Made by a program: the position numbers and the translations under genes. A stretch of DNA of 64,000 bases from Gemmatimonas phototrophica (GTDB lineage Bacteria; Gemmatimonadota; Gemmatimonadetes; Gemmatimonadales; Gemmatimonadaceae): contig NZ_CP011454.1 in NCBI RefSeq assembly GCF_000695095.2, forward strand, positions 3,162,001-3,226,000. Reading direction: 5' to 3'. Below, piece after piece: positions 35,482 to 45,906 of this stretch. How positions within the stretch are numbered: the first letter of the stretch is position 1; each line of letters starts with the position of its first letter. The notes below the pieces were generated by a model, which worked only from the letters and a program-made list of their open reading frames with translations, searched no databases and was not told the DNA's origin.

Positions 35482-35514
35482 ACCGGCGATTGCCTTCAGG
35501 CGATCGCCGGTTTT
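35482..35514 (+). terminator. Terminator overlapping the facing czcA stop
   Basis: ACCGGCGAT at 35482-35490 pairs with ATCGCCGGT at 35503-35511, extended inward by a G-U pair and GCCT/AGGC to about 14 base pairs, and followed by TTTTG. It overlaps the last codons and stop of the minus-strand czcA-like gene. Confidence 0.75.
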
Positions 35515-38500
35515 GCGTCCACCGGGTGATGGTGTGCTTTGGGGCGCCGGGGATCCCGCGCTTCCAGCCACGCATAGAGGACCGGCAATACGAACAGCGT
35601 GAGCACCGTGCTGGTAACCAGCCCGCCAATCACCACACTGGCCAGCGGCCGCTGCACTTCGCTCCCGGGGCTCGTACTGAGAGCCATGGGGACAAACCCC
35701 AGACTGGCGACCAATGCCGTCATGAGCACCGGCCGCAGCCGGTCGGCCGCTCCCCGTATTACCCGTCCGGCCACCGTCTCATCTTCCGGATCGTCGCTCA
35801 GGCGCATGTGGTTGAGATGTTCCACCATGACCACACCATTGAGCACGGCAATGCCGAACAGCGCAATGAACCCGATGCTTGCCGAGAGACTGAGGTTGAG
35901 GCCACGTAGCCAGAGGGCGGCAATGCCACCCACCAGGGCAAACGGCACATTGGAAAGCACCAGCACCGCCTGCGACACTGACCGGAACGAGAGAAAGAGC
36001 AGTCCGAAAATCAGGACCAGCGCGAGAGGCACCACCACCGTGAGCCGCCCCATGGCCCGCTGCTGATTCTCATATTGCCCGCCCCACTCCAGGAACACGC
36101 CCGGCGGCAATTTCACCTCGCGGGCTATCCGGGTGCGTACTTCCTGCACGAAGCTGCCAAGGTCGCGACCACGCACATTGCTCAGCACCAGTGACCGACG
36201 TTGCGCATCCTCGTGGCCAATGAGTTCCGGGCCGGTGGTACTCTGCACATCGGCCACCGCCGTGAGCGGCAACAGTTCACCGCCCGGGGCGCGAATGGTG
36301 AGCCTACCAATCGCAGCGGCATCGGCACGATATGCATCGGGGGTGCGGACAACGATATCTACCCGCCGGAAGCCATCAATCAGTTCGGCGGCCTTCTGGG
36401 ACCCCATCGCCATATCCACGGCGTCACGCACATCCGCCACGGACAGGCCATACTGCGCCAAGGCTTCGCGCCGAATCTGCATGCGCACCTGCCCACTGCC
36501 GTCGGCGACTTCCACACCGACATCGGCATTGCCAGGCACGGTGGCGACAATGCGCAACAGCCGTTCGGCGATCGCCTGATTCTGGTCGAGATCGGGACCG
36601 ACCACCTTGATCCCCAGATCGGTCTTGATACCGCTCTCGGCCTCATCCAGACGCATGGCCAGCGGCTGCGTGAACGACACATCCAACCCCGGTACCACGC
36701 GCAACGCCGAGTCGAGCTTGGTTACCAGTTCTTCCGTGCTGGATGCCGACGTCCATTCGTCGCGCGGCTTGAGGATGACGTACATGTCCCCCTCAAAAAG
36801 TCCCATGGCTTCAGTAGCGAGATCGGGGCGTCCTTCCTTGGTGACCGTCGTGACGACTTCGGGGAACTGCTTCACGATGCGCTCCGCCGCCAACGACAGC
36901 CGGGTGGCATCTGCCAGATCCACGCTTGGCATGCGACGGGTGGTGATCAGAATGGAGCCCTCGTCCAACTTGGGCATGAACTCCGTGCCGATGCGTGTGA
37001 GCGAGGCGACCGCAATCACCACCAGAACCGCCGACACGACGACAATGGGCTGCGGACGCTGGAGCACACCGGCCAGCGCGCTCCGATACCGCTGCGTGAG
37101 TGAGACCATCCACTTGGCCGGTTCGCCGTGCCCTTCCCGTAGCGCCCAGCTCGACACGGCCGGCACGTAGGTAAGCGCCAGGAACAACGACCCCAACACC
37201 GCGCACACCACCGTGAACGCCATGGGCTTGAACATGCGCCCTTCCATGCCATCCAAGGTGAAGATGGGGATGTACACGGCCACGATGATGGCAATCCCGA
37301 ACAGGATGGGGCGTCCCACTTCGACGGCCGCGCGTTCAAAGAGCCCCTGCTTATTGGTCCCCGTGTGCGTCTCCATGCGGCGGATGAACCCTTCCACCAT
37401 CACCACGGAGGCATCCACTATGAGCCCGAAGTCGAGCGCCCCCAGACTCATGAGGTTGGCGCTATACCCGAACAGCGCCATCCCCACGAACGCGATGAGC
37501 ATGGAGATGGGGATGACGGAGGCCACAATGAGCGCCGCCCGCACGTTGCGCAGAAACAGGAAGAGCACCGCGATAACGAGCAGGCCACCTTCAACGAGGT
37601 TCTTGATGATGGTGTTGGTGGTACGCGCCACCAGGTCGGTCTGATCGTAGAACGGCACCACCTTCACGTGTGACGGCAACGAGGTCTTGATCTCCTCCAT
37701 GCGGACGCGCACGGCAGCGATGACCTTGCGGGAGTCGGCACCCTTGAGTTTGAGCACCATGCCGCTCACGACCTCTTCCTCACCATCCTTGGTCACGGCA
37801 CCGTTGCGTGGATGGGCGCCAAGGCGCACGGTGGCGACATCGCCCACACGCACCGGGGCACCGCGGTGCGACCCCACCACCACTCGCTCCACCTCCGCCG
37901 CCGACTCCACCCGTCCCAGTCCGCGCAGCGTGTAGCGCTCTCCGTTCTGCTCAAGATAGCTGCCACCGAACGCCAGCGTGTTGTTCGCGAGCGCGTTGTG
38001 CACATCCACGACCGTGTGCTGATAGCCCGCCAGCCGGACCGGATCGACAATGACTTCCACCCGCTCCGTGAGCCCGCCCCAGGAGTTCACTTCACTGACA
38101 CCGGGCACCGTGCGCAGCCGCGGACGCACGACGTAGTCGTGCAGGGTTTTTAGCTGCGCGAGGGAGAGCGAATCGCTGGTGAGCACGTACTGATACAGCT
38201 CGCCCATGGGCGTGGAGACCGGCCCGAGCGCCGGCTCAATGCCCACGGGCAGCGCGCCCTTGGCGTCCGACAGTCGCTGCTGTACCAGCTGCCGTGCGAA
38301 GTACACATCCACGTTGTCGGGGAACGGCACCGTCACCAGAGACAGTCCGAACTTGGACACCGAACGCACGCCTTCCGCTCCCGGCACCCCCATGAGCCCG
38401 GACTCGATGGGATACGTGACCAACCGTTCCACTTCTTCCGGCGCCATCCCGGGCGCGACGGTGATGACTTCCACCCGCGTACCAGTGAGATCAGGGAAGG

Positions 38501-38609
38501 CATCGAACGGAATGTGCTGCAGCGCGTACAGGCCGGCGGTCATCAGGGCAAGCGTGAAGCCCACCACCACGCCGCGTCTTCGCAGCGCAAAATGAATCAG
38601 CGATTTCAT
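35496..38609 (-). CDS. czcA: Heavy-metal efflux RND transporter, inner-membrane pump (CzcA/CusA family)
   Basis: The 1037-residue protein has twelve transmembrane helices and two large periplasmic loops. In helix 4 it has the HME-RND signature DFGLIVDASVVMVE (about residues 393-406), whose acidic residues relay protons. The N-terminus FPDLTGTRVEVITVAPGMAPEEVE and GVPGAEGVRSVSKFGLSLVTV are typical of CzcA/CusA. It drives metal cations from periplasm or cytoplasm to the outside with the adaptor and outer-membrane protein encoded just upstream. Which metal (Co/Zn/Cd versus Cu/Ag) is not certain; the helix-4 pattern favours divalent cations. It closes the operon order C-B-A, starting 3 bases after the adaptor stop. 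Confidence 0.9.
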   Translation of the reverse strand: MKSLIHFALRRRGVVVGFTLALMTAGLYALQHIPFDAFPDLTGTRVEVITVAPGMAPEEVERLVTYPIESGLMGVPGAEGVRSVSKFGLSLVTVPFPDNVDVYFARQLVQQRLSDAKGALPVGIEPALGPVSTPMGELYQYVLTSDSLSLAQLKTLHDYVVRPRLRTVPGVSEVNSWGGLTERVEVIVDPVRLAGYQHTVVDVHNALANNTLAFGGSYLEQNGERYTLRGLGRVESAAEVERVVVGSHRGAPVRVGDVATVRLGAHPRNGAVTKDGEEEVVSGMVLKLKGADSRKVIAAVRVRMEEIKTSLPSHVKVVPFYDQTDLVARTTNTIIKNLVEGGLLVIAVLFLFLRNVRAALIVASVIPISMLIAFVGMALFGYSANLMSLGALDFGLIVDASVVMVEGFIRRMETHTGTNKQGLFERAAVEVGRPILFGIAIIVAVYIPIFTLDGMEGRMFKPMAFTVVCAVLGSLFLALTYVPAVSSWALREGHGEPAKWMVSLTQRYRSALAGVLQRPQPIVVVSAVLVVIAVASLTRIGTEFMPKLDEGSILITTRRMPSVDLADATRLSLAAERIVKQFPEVVTTVTKEGRPDLATEAMGLFEGDMYVILKPRDEWTSASSTEELVTKLDSALRVVPGLDVSFTQPLAMRLDEAESGIKTDLGIKVVGPDLDQNQAIAERLLRIVATVPGNADVGVEVADGSGQVRMQIRREALAQYGLSVADVRDAVDMAMGSQKAAELIDGFRRVDIVVRTPDAYRADAAAIGRLTIRAPGGELLPLTAVADVQSTTGPELIGHEDAQRRSLVLSNVRGRDLGSFVQEVRTRIAREVKLPPGVFLEWGGQYENQQRAMGRLTVVVPLALVLIFGLLFLSFRSVSQAVLVLSNVPFALVGGIAALWLRGLNLSLSASIGFIALFGIAVLNGVVMVEHLNHMRLSDDPEDETVAGRVIRGAADRLRPVLMTALVASLGFVPMALSTSPGSEVQRPLASVVIGGLVTSTVLTLFVLPVLYAWLEARDPRRPKAHHHPVDAKPAIA

Positions 38610-38612
38610 GTG

Positions 38613-39857
38613 CTACTCCCCGCCGCCGGCACCACGGCGCTTGAGCAGCTCCGCCTTGGCGATGGCGGCACCACGCACCACCACCGCCGTGCCCTCCGGA
38701 AGGCCCGACAGCAGTTCCACGCGCTCCGCGTTTCGCCGTCCCACTCGCACCGGCATCGCCTTGATGAACAGTCCTTCGCCGCGCGGTTCCGACGCAAACA
38801 CCACCGTATCGCCCTCCAGCGCCTGGACGGCACCGGCGGGGACGGTGAGTGCCGAGGTGGTACCGCTGCCGCTGATATCCGCCTGAACAAATGTTTCGGC
38901 ACGCCCCACCGTTTTGCCTCGGCGCGTAGCGATGATTTGCACCATGCGCGTGAGCGTATCCACCGTGGGGGCCACGCGGGTTACCACGGCATCGAAGTGC
39001 TCCCCGGGGACCTCGGTGAGCGTATAGCGTACCGTAGCGCCCGTCTGAATACCCACCGCCTGCTGCTCCGGCACGTGCATTTCGATCTGCAGCTTCTCCG
39101 GGCTTCCGACGGTGACCAGCGGTGTGCCGGGGAGCACCACCGTGCCGGGCTGCGCCTCCCGTGAGGTGACCATGCCGGCAATCGGGGTGCGGATAATGAC
39201 ATCATGTTCGTCGGCACCTGCGGGCAGAGGGCCCAGGCCGGCCAGGTGTTCCACCAGCGCCCGCGCCCGGTCACGCTCGGCGACCGCCTGATCGTAGTTG
39301 GCGAGCGCAACCCGCTGCGCCACGTCCGCCCGTTCCAGTTCTGCCCGGGACATGGCTTTGTTGTCAAAGAGGCGTTTCGCCCGCGCGGCGGCCGTGATCG
39401 CCAGATCGCGTTCTGCTTCCATGGCGCTCACGCGCGCGGTGCCGCTGGCGAGGCTGCTGCGCGCGTCCATGATCTCGTGGCTGTGAATCATCACCAGCGC
39501 CTGCCCGGCAGAAACGCGATCGCCCACCCGCACCGTGACGTGCGTAATACGCCCCTCCGTAATGGAGCCAATGGTTTCGAGGCTGTTGGGATCCAGCTCC
39601 AGGCGCCCCGGGACGGTAACCGAGGCTCGCCAGGGCGCGGTGCGCGCGGTATCGATGGAGAGCCCGGCGATCTTGACGGCCTCCGCCGAGAGCGTGGCGC
39701 TGTCGAGCGTGGCCATCGATGCGGCCTCCGCGGCCGCATCGCCAGCAGGCGCCGACTCGGTACCTCCACACGCGTACAATGTGGCGACCGAGAGCATCAG
39801 CATCGTGCCGATGGCGGGACGCGCCACCTTCGTTGAACGGAATGACAGAACAGGCAT
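38613..39857 (-). CDS. czcB: Metal efflux periplasmic adaptor (CzcB-like lipoprotein)
   Basis: The 414-residue protein has a signal with lipobox LYAC (Cys 30), so it should be lipid-anchored. It shows the membrane-fusion pattern: barrel strand VPGRLELDPNSLETIGSITEG, lipoyl half GRITHVTVRVGDRVSAGQALVMIHSHE, a helical hairpin of about 85 residues, the second lipoyl half RTPIAGMVTSREAQPGTVV, and a beta-barrel plus membrane-proximal domain. It joins the RND pump to the TolC-like channel. No His-rich metal-binding tail of classical CzcB is seen. Tight spacing (2-3 bases) on both sides shows one operon. Confidence 0.88.
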   Translation of the reverse strand: MPVLSFRSTKVARPAIGTMLMLSVATLYACGGTESAPAGDAAAEAASMATLDSATLSAEAVKIAGLSIDTARTAPWRASVTVPGRLELDPNSLETIGSITEGRITHVTVRVGDRVSAGQALVMIHSHEIMDARSSLASGTARVSAMEAERDLAITAAARAKRLFDNKAMSRAELERADVAQRVALANYDQAVAERDRARALVEHLAGLGPLPAGADEHDVIIRTPIAGMVTSREAQPGTVVLPGTPLVTVGSPEKLQIEMHVPEQQAVGIQTGATVRYTLTEVPGEHFDAVVTRVAPTVDTLTRMVQIIATRRGKTVGRAETFVQADISGSGTTSALTVPAGAVQALEGDTVVFASEPRGEGLFIKAMPVRVGRRNAERVELLSGLPEGTAVVVRGAAIAKAELLKRRGAGGGE

Positions 39858-39859
39858 GA

Positions 39860-41143
39860 TCAGCGACCAGAGGGAGTCGAAGCGAGCACAGGGAGATCCA
39901 ACGGGCTGTCGGCGTGCAGCCGGGCCCCGAGCGATCGTTCAAGTTCGAGCCGGGCCATCCAGGCATCACCGGCCCAGCGGAGCTGCGCCTGCATGGCGTC
40001 GGCGGCAGCACGCTCGGCGTCGAGCAGCTCCGTCAGCGTGATGTGCCCTTCGCGGTATGACAGGCGGGCAATCCGTGCCACGTCAGCGCCGCGCGCGTCA
40101 AAGGTTCCCGCGTCGAGCGCCGCCGATTGCACCTCCCGGTAGTGTTGCAGTGCACTCAGCACACCACCCTGCACCACCCGCAGCAGATCGTCACGCCACA
40201 CGCGGGCCTCATTCAGTTGCCCGGTTGCCCGCTGACGCGCGCCACTATTGCGATTGAACACCGGCATGGGCATGGCCAGCCCAACCTGACCCGTCATGAA
40301 TCCGCCAGTTTCCTTGGTTCCGCCCTGGAGTTGCACTTCTCCCAACACGCCGCGGTGTTCGGCTGTAAGGCGGCGCTGGGCTTCCTGCACCGCCGCCTCG
40401 CGGGCGCGCACTTCGGCCCGATGCGTGAGGGCTGCACTGACGGCCGTGGCGGAATCCGGCGCGCTGGGGAGCGTGGGCGCCTGGATGGCCGCGACCAGTG
40501 GGAGTTGCGTGTCGGATACGCCCAGCAAACGGGCCAGCTCTGTGCGGGCCACGATGGCCTCATTGCGCGCGCTCACCAGGGCCACCCGCGCGCGGTCTGC
40601 CTCCAGCGACGTGCGCAGGCCCACGGCCTCGCTCACGAGTCCTTCGCGCAGACGCTCATTATCCACCCGGGCGATCTCCCGCAGCGCGTCATGCTGCTGC
40701 GTGACGATCTCGAGGGTGCCGAGCGCGGAGGCGGCGCGCAGCCAGGCGCGTGCCACGGTCAGTTCCGCATCGCGCTGGTCGGCGCTGGCGTCGGCAGTGA
40801 CCCGCTGTCGGCCAGCCGCGGCCGCCTGACGCAAGGCGAGGCGACGGCCAGAGAAATCAAAGGGGAGGTAAACGGTGGCAAAGATGTCCGGCTGCAGCGG
40901 ACTGCCAAGATTTTCCCGCCGCCATTCGATACTCGGGTTCATCCACTGTGTGGATTCGCCAACCTGCCCCAGCCCTACTTGCCGACGGGCATCGGTCATT
41001 TTGCGGAGCGGTCCGGATTGTCGGGCCACAGCGAGGGCCTCCGGCAATCCCAACGTGGATTGCGCCTGGAGTGGCGAGGGGGCGCCGGCAGCGAGCAGCA
41101 GCGTGGCAACGGCCACAGTGGGCAGTACACGGATCGCAGACAT
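39860..41143 (-). CDS. czcC: TolC-like outer-membrane efflux protein (CzcC-like)
   Basis: The 427-residue protein (ATG 41143) begins with a signal peptide (VLPTVAVATLLLAAGAPSPLQAQ, cleaved after AQA-like site near 26) and has two repeats of the outer-membrane factor fold with long amphipathic helices, for example LRQAAAAGRQRVTADASADQ and ARQRATGQLNEARVWRDDLL. It should form the trimeric outer-membrane duct of the metal efflux complex. An ATG eight codons upstream (41167) is possible but adds residues before the signal. It is the first gene of the operon; a direct-repeat operator candidate lies just upstream. Confidence 0.85.
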   Translation of the reverse strand: MSAIRVLPTVAVATLLLAAGAPSPLQAQSTLGLPEALAVARQSGPLRKMTDARRQVGLGQVGESTQWMNPSIEWRRENLGSPLQPDIFATVYLPFDFSGRRLALRQAAAAGRQRVTADASADQRDAELTVARAWLRAASALGTLEIVTQQHDALREIARVDNERLREGLVSEAVGLRTSLEADRARVALVSARNEAIVARTELARLLGVSDTQLPLVAAIQAPTLPSAPDSATAVSAALTHRAEVRAREAAVQEAQRRLTAEHRGVLGEVQLQGGTKETGGFMTGQVGLAMPMPVFNRNSGARQRATGQLNEARVWRDDLLRVVQGGVLSALQHYREVQSAALDAGTFDARGADVARIARLSYREGHITLTELLDAERAAADAMQAQLRWAGDAWMARLELERSLGARLHADSPLDLPVLASTPSGR

Positions 41144-41165
41144 GGGACCAACGTACGGTCTGTAC

Positions 41166-41183
41166 ATGAATGCTTCGTGAACT
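41166..41183 (-). promoter_or_regulatory. Candidate response-regulator site upstream of czcC
   Basis: ATGAATG (41166-41172) and GTGAACT (41177-41183) start 11 bases apart, one helical turn, and resemble the two ATGAATC half-sites upstream of the response regulator gene at 43839-43856. OmpR-type regulators bind such direct repeats. The site is 23 bases upstream of the czcC start. Confidence 0.4.
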
Positions 41184-41310
41184 GGTGCGTACGCCGGGAT
41201 TGCACTCCGCCGTGCGTTCCTGCGCCGGTCGCAGTATCACATGCCCGGTCGGCAGCGGCGAAAACGACGGTTGGCCGTGCGATTAGTCACAAGGAAGCAA
41301 CATACTTGTT

Positions 41311-41337
41311 TAAGTACTGGTCGTTCCAAGCCGATGA
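41311..41337 (+). promoter_or_regulatory. Sigma-28 (FliA)-like promoter of fliS homologue
   Basis: TAAG (41311-41314), a 15-base spacer and GCCGATGA (41330-41337) match the flagellar sigma-28 consensus TAAA-N15-GCCGATAA at 10 of 12 positions with the exact spacing. Transcription would start about 41344, downstream of an ATG at 41339 and upstream of the ATG at 41408. Confidence 0.55.
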
Positions 41338-41407
41338 AATGGGAGAGGCGACGACTCCGCCTTTCGAAATTCCCCCAGCTCCCTATGCCGTGCCTGTCCC
41401 GACGCCC

Positions 41408-41743
41408 ATGTTTACGAACGCGGTGATCGATGCCGATCGCCAGGCTCCTGATCCACTCTCCCTGCTCGTCCGCGCCTATGATCGCGCGATTCGGGCCTGC
41501 GAGACGTTTGATCATCGGGGGGCCATTGCGTCCATCTCTGTCCTCCGGGACGCCCTCGACCTCGATTCCCCCGCGTCCCGCAGCTTCGACTCCCTGTACA
41601 AGTGGTGTCTCGAGCGTGTTGATGCGCACGATTTCATGGGTGCGGCGCAATGCCTGCGAACGCTCCGCGACGCATGGCGCCGGGCCAGCCAGCCTTCACC
41701 GCTGGTCAGTCCTTCGACCTGGGACGACCTGCCCATCTGCTGA
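41408..41743 (+). CDS. FliS-like flagellar export chaperone (orphan)
   Basis: The 111-residue protein matches FliS in layout: DPLSLLVRAYDRAIRACE (FliS helix 1, LIxxLYxxxIxxxxxA), GAIASISVLRDALDLDS, then FDSLYKWCLERVDAHDFMGAAQCLRTLRDAW, here quoted in part as LRTLRDAWRRA, the conserved end of FliS. FliS holds flagellin monomers in the cytoplasm before export. I choose ATG 41408 because an upstream in-frame ATG (41339) would lie inside the predicted sigma-28 promoter. The N-terminus is therefore somewhat short. No other flagellar gene is in the window; it sits between the metal efflux operon and its likely sensor kinase. Confidence 0.65.
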   Translation: MFTNAVIDADRQAPDPLSLLVRAYDRAIRACETFDHRGAIASISVLRDALDLDSPASRSFDSLYKWCLERVDAHDFMGAAQCLRTLRDAWRRASQPSPLVSPSTWDDLPIC

Positions 41744-41766
41744 ACAGGGCGCGGCGCGCACCGGCA

Positions 41767-43143
41767 TCAGGTGGCCGGGACCGCCAGAGGCAACGCCACG
41801 GTAAAGCGGGCACCGCCCAGGTCACTCCGGTCCACGAGAATATCGCCGGCATGCCGCCGCACAATCCAGGCGGCAATGGCGAGACCGAGACCGCTCCCAT
41901 CCGCCCGCCGGTGGCGCGCGGACTCCGCTCGATAAAATCGGTCGAAGATACGGCCGCGGTCTTCGGTAGCCACGCCGGGGCCATCGTCTTCCACGGTGAA
42001 GATGGCACGCCCGTTCTGCGGACGCACCGACAGACGAACAGTTCCCGCCACGGCGCCATAGCGTAGCGCGTTATCCACGAGCACGCCGCAGAGTCGCGCG
42101 AGCAAGGTGGCATCGCCCTCGATGGGCGTTTCTTCGAGCGCGTTCACTTCCAGACGCACCCCGAGTTGCTGTGCCTGCGGTTGCCACCGCGGGATTTCGT
42201 CCGCAATGAGGTCATCGAGAAACAGCCGCGAGGCGTTCGTCATGACCTCGTCGCCCGTTGCGTCGGCGCGCGCCAGCTGCAGCAATTCATCCACCTGATG
42301 GGTCACGGCGCGGAGTTCACAGTCGAGCGCCGAGAGAATATCCTCCCGCTCGGCCACGGTGGGCACGTGCGCGGCCGACAACAGCGCCAATTCCACGCGG
42401 GCGCGCATGCGCGCAATGGGGGTGCGAAGTTCGTGGGCGGCGTCCGCGAGAAATTGCCGCTGTTGCGTGAGCGCGCCGTCGAGGCGATCGAGCAGGGCGT
42501 TGAAGCGCGTCCCCAGCCGTCCCAGCTCATCGTCAGGATCGCTGATAGGCAATCGCGCCCCGCTCGCCGGCGCAATGCGCGCGGCGGCGGCCGCCATGCG
42601 ACGTACCGGCTCCAGCGTTCGGCCCGTCAGCCACCAGCCGGCAATGGCCGCCGCGAGCACCAGCAGCGGAATTCCAAAGAGAAACCACCGATCAATGCGT
42701 CCCTGGAGGCCCTGCATATTGGCCAGACTGGCATCCACTTCCACCTGCCACCCTGGCGCCAGATCAGGGTCGAGCGGAAAGCGCACCGACTGGAGCGGCG
42801 TAGCGATCGATTTCACCTGCGCGCGCGGCATCCGCGTGCGCGTGCGGAACAGGGTGCCATCGGGTCGCCGGTAGCGAATGATGCGATCCTCGAAGACCAG
42901 TTCACCGGAGATATGCGTGAGCGTGGCGTCGATGGTGCGGTACTCATTCACTTCCGTGCGGAAGAACTGGGTGACCAGTCCGGCGGATGCGCGCACCGAC
43001 TCCTCAAATTCCCGCTCGAGGGTGGCTCGCAGGGCAAAGCGCAGCACCGTGGCCGCACTCACCAGTACCAGCAGCAGGGTCGCCGCATACAGCACCGTGA
43101 AGCGCAACCGGATGCGTGGACGACTCACATCGCGGGGCATCAC
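41767..43143 (-). CDS. Sensor histidine kinase, probably metal-responsive
   Basis: The 458-residue protein has TM1 (13-35), a periplasmic sensor region of about 115 residues, TM2 (153-173), a HAMP segment, the dimerisation/phosphoacceptor helix with H237 in DAAHELRTPIARMR, and an ATPase domain with N-box DNALRYGAV, G1 DDGPGV and G2 GSGLGLAIA. It should phosphorylate the response regulator encoded upstream with an ATGA overlap. Position beside czcCBA suggests a CusS/CzcS-type metal sensor, but no obvious His/Met metal cluster is seen in the sensor domain. The gene is convergent with fliS, with 23 bases between stops. Confidence 0.88.
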   Translation of the reverse strand: MMPRDVSRPRIRLRFTVLYAATLLLVLVSAATVLRFALRATLEREFEESVRASAGLVTQFFRTEVNEYRTIDATLTHISGELVFEDRIIRYRRPDGTLFRTRTRMPRAQVKSIATPLQSVRFPLDPDLAPGWQVEVDASLANMQGLQGRIDRWFLFGIPLLVLAAAIAGWWLTGRTLEPVRRMAAAAARIAPASGARLPISDPDDELGRLGTRFNALLDRLDGALTQQRQFLADAAHELRTPIARMRARVELALLSAAHVPTVAEREDILSALDCELRAVTHQVDELLQLARADATGDEVMTNASRLFLDDLIADEIPRWQPQAQQLGVRLEVNALEETPIEGDATLLARLCGVLVDNALRYGAVAGTVRLSVRPQNGRAIFTVEDDGPGVATEDRGRIFDRFYRAESARHRRADGSGLGLAIAAWIVRRHAGDILVDRSDLGGARFTVALPLAVPAT

Positions 43144-43817
43144 TCGCGCGGTGGGGCCAGGCGGTACCCGGCACCGCGCACCGTACTGAGGAGCGGTTCG
43201 TCGTGCGGGCCGTCCACTTTCCGTCGCAAGCGGGCGATGTAGACGTCAATCACGTTGCTCATGGGGTCGAAATTGTCGTCCCATGCATGTTCACCAATGA
43301 ATTCCCGGGTCAGCACCCGGCCGGAGGCGCGCATGAGCACCTCAAGGACGGCAAACTCCTTGGTGGTCAGGGTGATCTCGCGTGCGCCCCGACGGGCTTC
43401 CCGGGTGGCCGGATCGAGAATGAGGTCACTGACCTGCAGTCGGGTAGGAGCCGCGTGATCGGGACGACGCAACAGGGCGCGCACGCGGGCCACGAGTTCG
43501 CCAAGGGCGTAAGGTTTGACGAGGTAGTCGTCCGCGCCGAGATCAAGCCCGGCGATGCGGTCGTCCACCCCGTCACGCGCCGTGGCCATGAGGATGCGGG
43601 GGGCTGGCACCCGGGCCCGAAACACCGTGCAGAGGGCAAAGCCATCGTCGTCGGGGAGACGAATATCCAGAATCACGGCATCATATGGGCTGACGGCAGC
43701 CAGTTCGCGCGCCATCTTCCCCGTAGCGGCGGGATCAACGGCAAAGCCCGTTGCCCGGAGGTATGCCGTTGCGCTCTCACGCAGCGTATCGTCGTCTTCC
43801 ACCAGGAGCACACGCAT
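43140..43817 (-). CDS. OmpR-family response regulator
   Basis: The 225-residue protein has a receiver domain with acidic pocket (VEDDD, 7-10), phosphoacceptor D51 (ILDIRLP), the conserved Thr/Ser region and K near 100 (LVKPYALGEL). A C-terminal winged helix follows with EITLTTKEFAVLEVLMRASGRVLTRE and VIDVYIARLRRKVD. It should activate or repress the adjacent czcCBA genes and itself. ATGAATC direct repeats upstream of both transcription units support that. Its stop overlaps the kinase start. Confidence 0.92.
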   Translation of the reverse strand: MRVLLVEDDDTLRESATAYLRATGFAVDPAATGKMARELAAVSPYDAVILDIRLPDDDGFALCTVFRARVPAPRILMATARDGVDDRIAGLDLGADDYLVKPYALGELVARVRALLRRPDHAAPTRLQVSDLILDPATREARRGAREITLTTKEFAVLEVLMRASGRVLTREFIGEHAWDDNFDPMSNVIDVYIARLRRKVDGPHDEPLLSTVRGAGYRLAPPRE

Positions 43818-43872: not shown

Positions 43873-45015
43873 GTGACGCGGTTCGTACTGCCCGACGACA
43901 GCCTGCCCATTGACCGCACCGGCCCGCACCGTGCGGTGCCTCGCATTGGCGTGGTAATGGGCGGGGGGGCGCTGAAGGGGCTGGCCCATGTGGGGGCCCT
44001 CCGCGCCATCCGCGAGGCAGGCATCACTCCCAAGCTGTACGCCGGTTCCAGCATTGGGGCCATGATTGCCGCCGCTGCGGCCAGTGGCCGCGCGCCGGAG
44101 GACCTCATGAAGCGCGCGCTCGGCGTGCGCCGACGCGATCTGTTCCGCATCAATCACATGGGGATGATCATGGAGCGCATGCTGTCGCGTTCCATCTACC
44201 TTGAGGCGCCACTGCGCGCCTTGTGCGATGAATTGGTAGACGAAGGGACCTTCGACAGCTTTGCGAATCCCCTGCTGGTGTCGGCGGTGGACATTGAACG
44301 GGGACTCCCGGTGGTGTTCGGACGCCCGGGGTTTCGGAATGTGCGTGTGCGCGATGCGGTGTATGCCTCGTGTGCCCTGCCCGGTTTCTTCCCGCCCGGG
44401 GTGGTAGGGGACCGGGTGTGCATTGATGGCGGCACGATGGACAATCTGCCCGTGAACATTGCCGGGCTGGATGTTGATGCCATTATCGCGGTGGATGTCG
44501 GCATTGCTGACGTGCCGCACGCGGCCGGTGTGGCCGAACAGGGGTTCGCCACCATTTTCATGCGTGCCGCCACCATGATGATGCACGAGATGCAGCAGGC
44601 GACGCTCGATCGGTGGTCGGGGCCGCCCATGTTGCTGGTGCGTCCCAAGGTGTCGCACATTGGCTGGTTTTCCTTCTCCCATATGGAGCAGTTGCTCGAA
44701 GTGGGCTACGAATCCACCAGAGAGGCGCTCAAGCACCTGTTGGAAGCGCTGGCAGCGCCGGGGGGCATTTTCCCCCGTATCGAGATGGAGATTGGCGTGG
44801 ACCGGGAACGCTGCACCGGATGTGGATTATGTGCCGCGCATCATTCTTCTCTGATGGCGCTGGACTCCTCCCATCGCGCATATCCACTGGAGCAGGTGCA
44901 CATTTTCTCCCCGGCCGACGCCGCATTTGCCCGGTGTTGTCCGGTGGAAGCCATCAGCGTTGGCCCGGTCGCACACCGGGATCCCGTGGCCGACCGGCTG
45001 GCCCAGTCTGCCTGA
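43873..45015 (+). CDS. Patatin-like phospholipase fused to a ferredoxin-like domain
   Basis: The 380-residue protein has an N-terminal patatin domain: oxyanion glycines GGGALKG (30-36), nucleophile elbow GSSIG with S60, and the catalytic Asp in DGGTMDNLP (about 183). After residue 300 it carries CTGCGLC (C314, C317, C320) and later CCPVEAI (C355, C356), the pattern of a ferredoxin-type 4Fe-4S cluster (CxxCxxC...CP). So a lipid acyl hydrolase is joined to an iron-sulfur module in one intact frame. The GTG start 43873 is preceded by GGGAG. It is divergent from the response regulator gene and precedes a hypothetical gene by 30 bases. Confidence 0.85.
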   Translation: MTRFVLPDDSLPIDRTGPHRAVPRIGVVMGGGALKGLAHVGALRAIREAGITPKLYAGSSIGAMIAAAAASGRAPEDLMKRALGVRRRDLFRINHMGMIMERMLSRSIYLEAPLRALCDELVDEGTFDSFANPLLVSAVDIERGLPVVFGRPGFRNVRVRDAVYASCALPGFFPPGVVGDRVCIDGGTMDNLPVNIAGLDVDAIIAVDVGIADVPHAAGVAEQGFATIFMRAATMMMHEMQQATLDRWSGPPMLLVRPKVSHIGWFSFSHMEQLLEVGYESTREALKHLLEALAAPGGIFPRIEMEIGVDRERCTGCGLCAAHHSSLMALDSSHRAYPLEQVHIFSPADAAFARCCPVEAISVGPVAHRDPVADRLAQSA

Positions 45016-45045: not shown

Positions 45046-45906
45046 ATGCCTGACCAGTACTACGAAAACATTCGCGCCCAGATCAAGGCGGCGGCCGGCA
45101 GCGGCGCCAGCAAGTCCGACGTTCTCTGGGCTGTCGCCGACGGCGTGGCGACGGTGATTGACGGCGCGACCGGCACCGGCTTTGCCGGCGCGGCCAACTC
45201 GGCGGTGCAGGGGGTCTATTCGGCGGCGTCTTCGCAGAACAGCGGAGTAATCCCCAACCCGTGGATGGTGTGGAACGGTCATGACGATGCGGAATCACCG
45301 ACCACCAAGGCGTACCTGAAGCACCGCGGGCGCATGCAGCTGGGCGGTGCGGCCGTCTCGGCGGCGGGCGCGCTGGCGGCGGCGGGTACCGTGGCCGACG
45401 TGGGCGCCCTGCTGTCCCATGGCAACGCCACCGGCTCCACCGTGGCGCACCTCCTCAAGTTCAAGGCCATTGCCAAGGGCTACAAGCAGAGCGAGACCAT
45501 CTCCGGCTGGATTGATGTGCTCATGAAGATGAAGGCGCTCAAGGGTGCCGTGCGCGGTGGTCAGTTTGCGGCAGCGGTGGCGGCGCCCATTCCATGGGGT
45601 GGCGCTACGGCGGTCTCCATTACGGCCGGCGTGTTGGCGGCCGGTGCCAAGCTGGGCATCAAGCTCAAGTTTTCCAACCTGTGCGCCATGACGGCCATGG
45701 ACCTGCACTGGCGCTGTTACCAGGAGACGGCCCTGCTGGGGGGCATTCGCGGGATGAGCGCCGGGACTGGGCCGGCCAACCGTATTCTCCAGGAGTTGTT
45801 CATCCGCCGAGGGATGACCCGAGTGTTTGGACAGCACAACCTGCCTGGACTGGTGAAGGAGCCAGGGGGCTGGCTGGCCATCAATGACAAGCTTTTGCTG
45901 ATCTAG
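45046..45906 (+). CDS. Hypothetical protein rich in Ala/Gly hydrophobic stretches
   Basis: The 286-residue protein (ATG 45046) starts with a helical [31 protein letters not shown], quoted in part as [17 protein letters not shown]. It has weakly hydrophobic, Ala/Gly-rich stretches at about 100-120 and 180-215 that could insert in a membrane, and a C-terminal more globular part ([37 protein letters not shown]). I do not recognise a family. It lies 30 bases downstream of the patatin-ferredoxin gene on the same strand and is probably co-transcribed, so the two may work together. Confidence 0.55.

Follow-up and report, generated by a model that had tools for sequence, protein, structure and literature searches.

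The open reading frame at 41390–41743 on the forward strand of the analysed window (the whole stretch of 64,000 nucleotides of Gemmatimonas phototrophica DNA, positions 3,162,001 to 3,226,000 of contig NZ_CP011454.1) very probably encodes a FliS-derived flagellar protein under the control of FliA (sigma-28). We refer to it as the orphan. Its identity as a relative of FliS is well supported. Its mechanism is proposed more tentatively: the orphan may be a FliS paralogue expressed late, not docking at the export gate and regulating through flagellin or FlgM, a plausible but far from certain reading. The computational support comes from the fold, the conservation of the promoter, purifying selection, decay of the gene together with flagella in one genome, and the loss of the N-terminal tyrosine motif.

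Flagellin export and the control of late genes come together in FliS, so that either role is difficult to study apart from the other. A FliS relative that seemingly lacks export-gate docking and keeps a late promoter would allow the regulatory role to be studied alone. The orphan would also represent a flagellar-regulon gene of the Gemmatimonadaceae that is missed by the cut-off of the family profile. In the open-access literature searched, we found no account of FliS or sigma28 in the flagellar context of Gemmatimonas. The features discussed below are listed in window coordinates.

41277–41290, forward strand: GTG-N7-TCAC dyad with half-sites of the Crp/FNR type, centred 26 bases 5' of the −35 element; recognised by conservation, function putative
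41310–41314, forward strand: −35 element of a sigma-28-type promoter, TTAAG (TCAAG in the family consensus); found at fixed spacing in 27 of 27 upstream regions
41330–41338, forward strand: −10 element GCCGATGAA of the same sigma-28-type promoter; same spacing before flgM in three of three genomes
41390–41743, forward strand: orphan gene for a short FliS paralogue of 117 amino acids, GTG start; recognised by orthologues, start codon, sub-cut-off Pfam FliS match, FliS fold and purifying selection

Identification of the orphan gene and its start codon

The orphan occupies positions 3203390–3203743 of the chromosome. It is a genuine gene, because orthologues are found in 24 of the 30 genomes of the genus, including all 16 with at least 90% completeness and at most 5% contamination, and because dN/dS is low (0.055–0.244 in 11 of 11 chosen orthologue pairs), indicating purifying selection.

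Translation probably starts at the GTG at 41390, yielding 117 residues. This assignment rests on the start codons of 21 orthologues at the same position (GTG in 15, ATG in 6) and on two loci, L003 and L004, that contain an in-frame TAA between the equivalent of the ATG at 41339 and the conserved GTG; start codons were placed relative to the promoter element in 22 loci. A start at 41339, which is open and in frame in the window, was rejected on account of these stops. The initial annotation had taken the promoter position to fix the start codon at 41408, a choice that we replace with the GTG at 41390: the 41408 position is not conserved among orthologues, with methionine in only 5 of 21 alignment rows (read by eye).

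A conserved sigma-28-type promoter precedes the orphan

Upstream of the gene lies the putative promoter TTAAG-N15-GCCGATGAA (41310–41338, forward strand), from which a transcript would probably start near 41345. The element had been described as TAAG-N15-GCCGATGA with the exact spacing of a flagellar class 3 promoter, and in this register 10 of 12 bases indeed match TAAA-N15-GCCGATAA. The claim of exact spacing is correct in the TAAG register but not in the conserved one: because the orthologues show the −35 element conserved as T(C/T/A)AAG, the spacing is TAAAG-N15-GCCGA. This exceeds the E. coli sigma-28 consensus TAAAGTTT-n11-GCCGATAA, as given in PMC2859248, by one base.

A first, narrower pattern, TYAAG-N15-RCCGA, was present at 22 of 24 genus loci and missed L010, which has TCCGA, and L025, a gene remnant in genome G024. 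After L010 and L150 had been seen, the pattern was widened to T[CTA]AAG-N15-[GAT]CCGA, which lies no more than 200 bases from the start in all 27 upstream regions of intact orthologues, with GCCGA in 23. These 27 comprise the 22 narrow-pattern loci, L010 and four loci of a second genus; L025 was dropped. Among gaps of 8 to 23 bases, 27 upstream regions matched at gap 15, two at gap 10 and none at any other. Among dinucleotide shuffles of the same regions, the number with the pattern averaged 0.03 and never exceeded 1, a figure that overstates independence given that the 27 sequences are related. The pattern was absent upstream of four neighbouring genes (0 of 14 for each), and the sequence between the −35 and −10 elements is highly variable among the genus loci. 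Since the pattern is conserved in 27 of 27 upstream regions against a shuffled mean of 0.03, the predicted promoter is not a chance occurrence.

The same spacing recurs before flgM (named by inspection), which carries TAAAGT-N14-GCCGATAG in three of three complete genomes. Together with the conservation in 27 upstream regions, this identity of spacing supports the initial assignment of the promoter to the sigma-28 type. The fliC promoter of the genus, TCAAGTTC, has a spacing one base shorter than that of the orphan, and a similar site lies 69 bases 5' of a gene that by inspection is cheA-like in G000. A genome-wide scan of three genomes with TMAAGT-N14-GCCGA, a pattern that excludes the window's own TTAAGT, returned 26 sites, of which three precede flgM, two the orphan and one the cheA-like gene; most of the remaining 20 lie inside long open frames.

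The orphan is predicted to adopt the FliS fold

The initial annotation had called the gene FliS-like and proposed a search with the FliS profile. That search matched, but below the curated cut-off: Pfam FliS (PF02561) scored 23.4 bits for the 117-residue form and 23.7 bits for a 111-residue form against a cut-off of 26.7, and 19 of 25 orthologues matched FliS in Pfam at E up to 1. In the reverse direction, a profile built from the 25 orthologues and searched against the PDB placed three FliS chains first, with marginal E-values of 0.013–0.067.

The fold confirms the assignment, which the profile supports weakly. The AlphaFold2 model (mean pLDDT 77, pTM 0.62) contains helices at residues 22–38, 42–55, 61–78 and 82–100. 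With this model, Foldseek returned FliS entries at ranks 1–7, and 10 of the best 11 rows from VIA-align were FliS entries, with Z up to 12.9; 3k1i_B superposed at 1.1 Å over 81 residues (Z 12.7). As helical bundles match easily, the order of the list carries more weight than the Z value. Complexes of FliS with flagellin were among the best structural matches. In the predicted model, the orphan thus has the four-helix bundle fold of FliS.

Two other assignments were rejected. An HPt domain was considered, but the two HPt chains in the structural list rank lower and the alignment has no invariant histidine. The NCBIfam match to an SscA/SycD-type chaperone (E 0.034, 13.8 bits against a cut-off of 163 bits) is at chance level. 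A search of PHROGs returned no match for the orphan protein.

The orphan lacks the docking motif of canonical FliS

We compared the 25 orphan proteins with 31 canonical FliS sequences of the family, namely those assigned loci among the 67 genomes with a match, using motifs of canonical FliS chosen by us from these same sequences. The N-terminal tyrosine motif is present in 27 of 31 canonical proteins and in none of the 25 orphans, only four of which have any tyrosine within the first 18 residues. The LD-GG turn is likewise absent from all orphans and present in 30 of 31 canonical proteins. Relative to canonical FliS, the alignment places deletions of about 14 residues between helices 1 and 2 and about 7 residues between helices 3 and 4.

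All 25 orphans share two cysteines, Cys37 and Cys73, and the mean number of cysteines per protein is 4.5, compared with 0.3 in canonical FliS. The last residue is cysteine (15) or serine (6) in all 21 genus proteins. This C-terminal residue is often preceded by Asp-Leu-Pro-Val and is possibly part of a recognition tail.

In a tree of the 25 orphans, the 31 canonical FliS and two tandem proteins, all orphans cluster together (100/100), separated from canonical FliS by a very long branch (3.76). The tandem proteins come from a second FliS-like gene that, in some genera of the family, lies in tandem with fliS, namely at L127 (G043) and L143 (G119), and also in G070, G091, G141 and G150; those of G043 and G119 lack a canonical-type N-terminal tyrosine motif and keep the LD-GG turn. 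Descent of the orphan from such a tandem copy was rejected on the basis of this retained turn and of the tree, in which both proteins group among canonical FliS, their exact place being unsure owing to long branches.

Flagellar genes of the genome

A single canonical fliS was found in the genome, at 577113–577445, with flagellin nearby at 574053; the flagellar genes that we located fall at about 0.53–0.58 Mb of the chromosome, and the window covers 3.16–3.23 Mb. The orphan had been described as far from any flagellar gene in the window, and we saw none among the neighbours examined. Flagellin_N has only two matches in the genome. The strong one is fliC, directly upstream of fliD and fliS (names by inspection), and the weak one (38.9 bits) is probably FlgL. 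FliF and FlhA are also present. One FliA protein scores above the curated cut-off (TIGR02479, 217 bits; cut-off 189.6), and another three give good matches to the FliA profile that stay below the cut-off. The genome therefore contains the second fliS beside fliD and fliC for which the initial annotation had proposed to look, as well as the flagellin and sigma-28 genes whose absence would have spoken against its reading.

Distribution and genomic neighbourhood

Across 148 genomes of the family, the orphan occurs in 18 (2 of 35 genera) and canonical FliS (E up to 0.01) in 67 (21 of 35 genera). Given these genus counts, flagella in general do not require the orphan, and most flagellated genera of the family do without it. 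Two peptide patterns searched against a collection of species genomes returned 20 loci, many of them repeats of those already found; most belong to MAGs with Gemmatimonadota-type titles, and a few carry other titles, including Chloroflexi and Kuenenia.

The orphan belongs with flagella and, in one genome, decays alongside them. Searches of G024 (93% complete) matched neither flagellin nor FliF nor FlhA, and its syntenic place holds an orphan remnant with no 5' part, two stops and no recognisable 3' end; this co-decay is seen in this one genome, which has 6% contamination. As a point against a strict association, four genomes (G010, G016, G023 and G026) contain flagellin and have no orphan match. 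They are 80–88% complete, and the missing gene may reflect incomplete assembly.

In most genomes the orphan is flanked by an RND efflux operon and a kinase-regulator pair, which in the window span 35496–43817 on the reverse strand. The order efflux genes, orphan, kinase-regulator pair, patatin-like gene was found at 12 of 16 loci examined. L083 and L088 lack only the patatin match, and L086 and L089 have neither the efflux nor the two-component block, the orphan still lying beside patatin and aconitase. Neither the efflux operon nor the kinase-regulator pair is present in G017 and G029; there the orphan stands beside the patatin gene. This patatin-like phospholipase (43873–45015, forward strand) carries a C-terminal single-cluster 4Fe-4S ferredoxin domain (PF01734 + PF13459), an unusual fusion; it adjoins aconitase, and the neighbourhood is conserved throughout the genus and also in a second one. 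Further downstream, a 286-residue open frame (45046–45906, forward strand) matches nothing in Pfam and has no syntenic match at any of the 16 orthologous loci.

A Crp/FNR-type dyad lies upstream of the promoter

The GTG-N7-TCAC dyad has the spacing of Crp/FNR-type sites, TGTGA-N6-TCACA, comparable with the Crp consensus given in PMC2859248. The exact dyad occurs in 14 of the 27 upstream regions (mean 0.36, maximum 3 after resampling), and at least six of its seven letters occur in 21 (resampled mean 5.3, maximum 14). This null was obtained by first-order Markov resampling, and the promoter null by dinucleotide shuffling. In 19 of the 27 regions the dyad is centred 16, 26–27 or 36–37 bases 5' of the −35 element, distances spaced one helical turn apart; two regions have it at other distances and six have none. 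In each of three genomes we found one strong protein with a Crp-type HTH; a Crp-type gene lies near 1.659 Mb of the chromosome.

In E. coli, as described in PMC2859248, Crp activates the sigma-28 promoters of aer and trg from −49.5 and fails on the opposite face of the helix; at −61.5 it gave no sigma-28-dependent activation. The dyad is a candidate site at which a Crp/FNR-family regulator would tune the orphan. It may instead be a site of the divergent efflux operon; G024 keeps this operon without the exact dyad and has a six-of-seven-letter match there.

Proposed function and alternative explanations

According to PMC8527033, Tyr-10 of Salmonella FliS is needed for FlhA binding, and FliS is described as binding FlgM and retarding its secretion (PMC8527033; PMC7248283). 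We propose that FliA (sigma-28) polymerase would transcribe the orphan late in flagellar assembly and that a Crp/FNR-family regulator bound just upstream would probably tune it. The predicted protein keeps the four-helix core of FliS, with two helix hairpins shortened and the segment that in FliS docks at FlhA gone. As it has no N-terminal tyrosine segment for the export gate FlhA, the orphan most likely delivers no cargo for export. It would remain in the cytoplasm and bind or sequester a late flagellar protein, either the flagellin C-terminus or FlgM, and so feed back on filament growth or late gene expression as a buffer or a brake. We consider a non-delivering binding protein the best reading because the orphan appears to be a late-expressed FliS relative without the tyrosine motif. 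Of the two roles that the initial annotation had suggested, an adapted regulator, whose mechanism we can only propose, fits better than a second FliS for a distinct flagellin, given the single strong flagellin and the missing docking motif.

Several observations count against this reading. The shortened hairpins may weaken cargo binding too, the Pfam score is below its curated cut-off, and the promoter spacing exceeds the E. coli consensus by one base. Four genomes with flagellin have no orphan match, most flagellated genera of the family lack the gene, the co-decay comes from one contaminated genome, and the lack of sigma-28-dependent activation by Crp at −61.5 is described for E. coli (PMC2859248).

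The orphan could also function as a second export chaperone, serving flagellin or some other filament-type protein and docking at the gate through another surface. The FliS fold, the flagellin complexes among its best structural matches and a late promoter like that of flgM would suit such a role, but the tyrosine motif is missing in all 25 orphans, the hairpins are shorter by about 14 and 7 residues, the one strong flagellin has its own fliS nearby, and the orphan is distant from any such substrate gene, all of which makes this unlikely. Slightly less doubtful is co-option of the FliS fold in swimming cells with late flagellar expression kept, for example as a thiol-based or metal-binding sensor or as an adaptor for a non-flagellar partner. 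The two invariant cysteines, the cysteine-rich composition, the C-terminal Cys/Ser of all 21 genus proteins and the very long branch point in this direction; however, canonical FliS has hydrophobic residues at the positions aligned with these cysteines, which may be core residues, and the gene decays with flagella in G024. A version of the binding-protein reading that draws on the same thiol pair is quite speculative: the orphan would be a FliS-derived anti-chaperone that keeps the cargo core, lacks FlhA docking and holds flagellin or FlgM to brake filament growth or late genes, with the thiol pair and the Crp/FNR-type site coupling this action to redox or energy state.

As for the promoter, another sigma factor may read it, which would make the flagellar link indirect. 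The spacing, one base off both the E. coli consensus and the genus fliC promoter, and the three additional sub-cut-off FliA matches leave room for this, but the same element at the same spacing precedes a classical class 3 gene, flgM, in three of three genomes, and we regard a different sigma factor as improbable. That a chance promoter word precedes a spurious open frame is already refuted for practical purposes: a dozen other places in the genome match when one mismatch is allowed, yet the promoter is conserved in 27 of 27 upstream regions, all 11 pairs have dN/dS below 0.25, and synteny and fold likewise speak against it.

Comparison with known systems

With FliS (PF02561; 1ORY, 5MAW, 6GOW, 3K1I, 6LEA, 6CH3), the orphan shares the predicted four-helix bundle, the core motifs YD-AI, LY and LR-AW and, as far as its promoter indicates, late flagellar expression. 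Unlike FliS, it scores below the family cut-off, lacks the N-terminal tyrosine motif and the LD-GG turn, has deletions of about 14 and 7 residues, carries invariant cysteines and does not lie beside fliD/fliC.

Its putative promoter shares the TAAAG/TCAAG and GCCGA elements and their spacing with sigma-28 (FliA) class 3 promoters such as that of flgM in the same genomes. It differs in having one base more between the elements than the E. coli consensus and the genus fliC promoter, and in the dyad that lies upstream. Dyad distances are related to those of E. coli by way of the position of the E. coli −35 element relative to the transcript start, which we presume. Like aer and trg of E. coli as described in PMC2859248, the orphan has a GTG-N7-TCAC dyad upstream of a sigma-28-type promoter, and at three of four loci of the second genus the dyad centre, 16 bases 5' of the −35 element, is at about the E. 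coli distance (−49.5; PMC2859248). In the genus of the window, unlike at aer and trg, the dyad is centred mostly 26–27 and sometimes 36–37 bases 5' of the −35 element, more distant by one or two turns, and the orphan is no chemoreceptor gene. The arrangement offers a candidate case of Crp-type input to sigma-28 promoters outside enterics.
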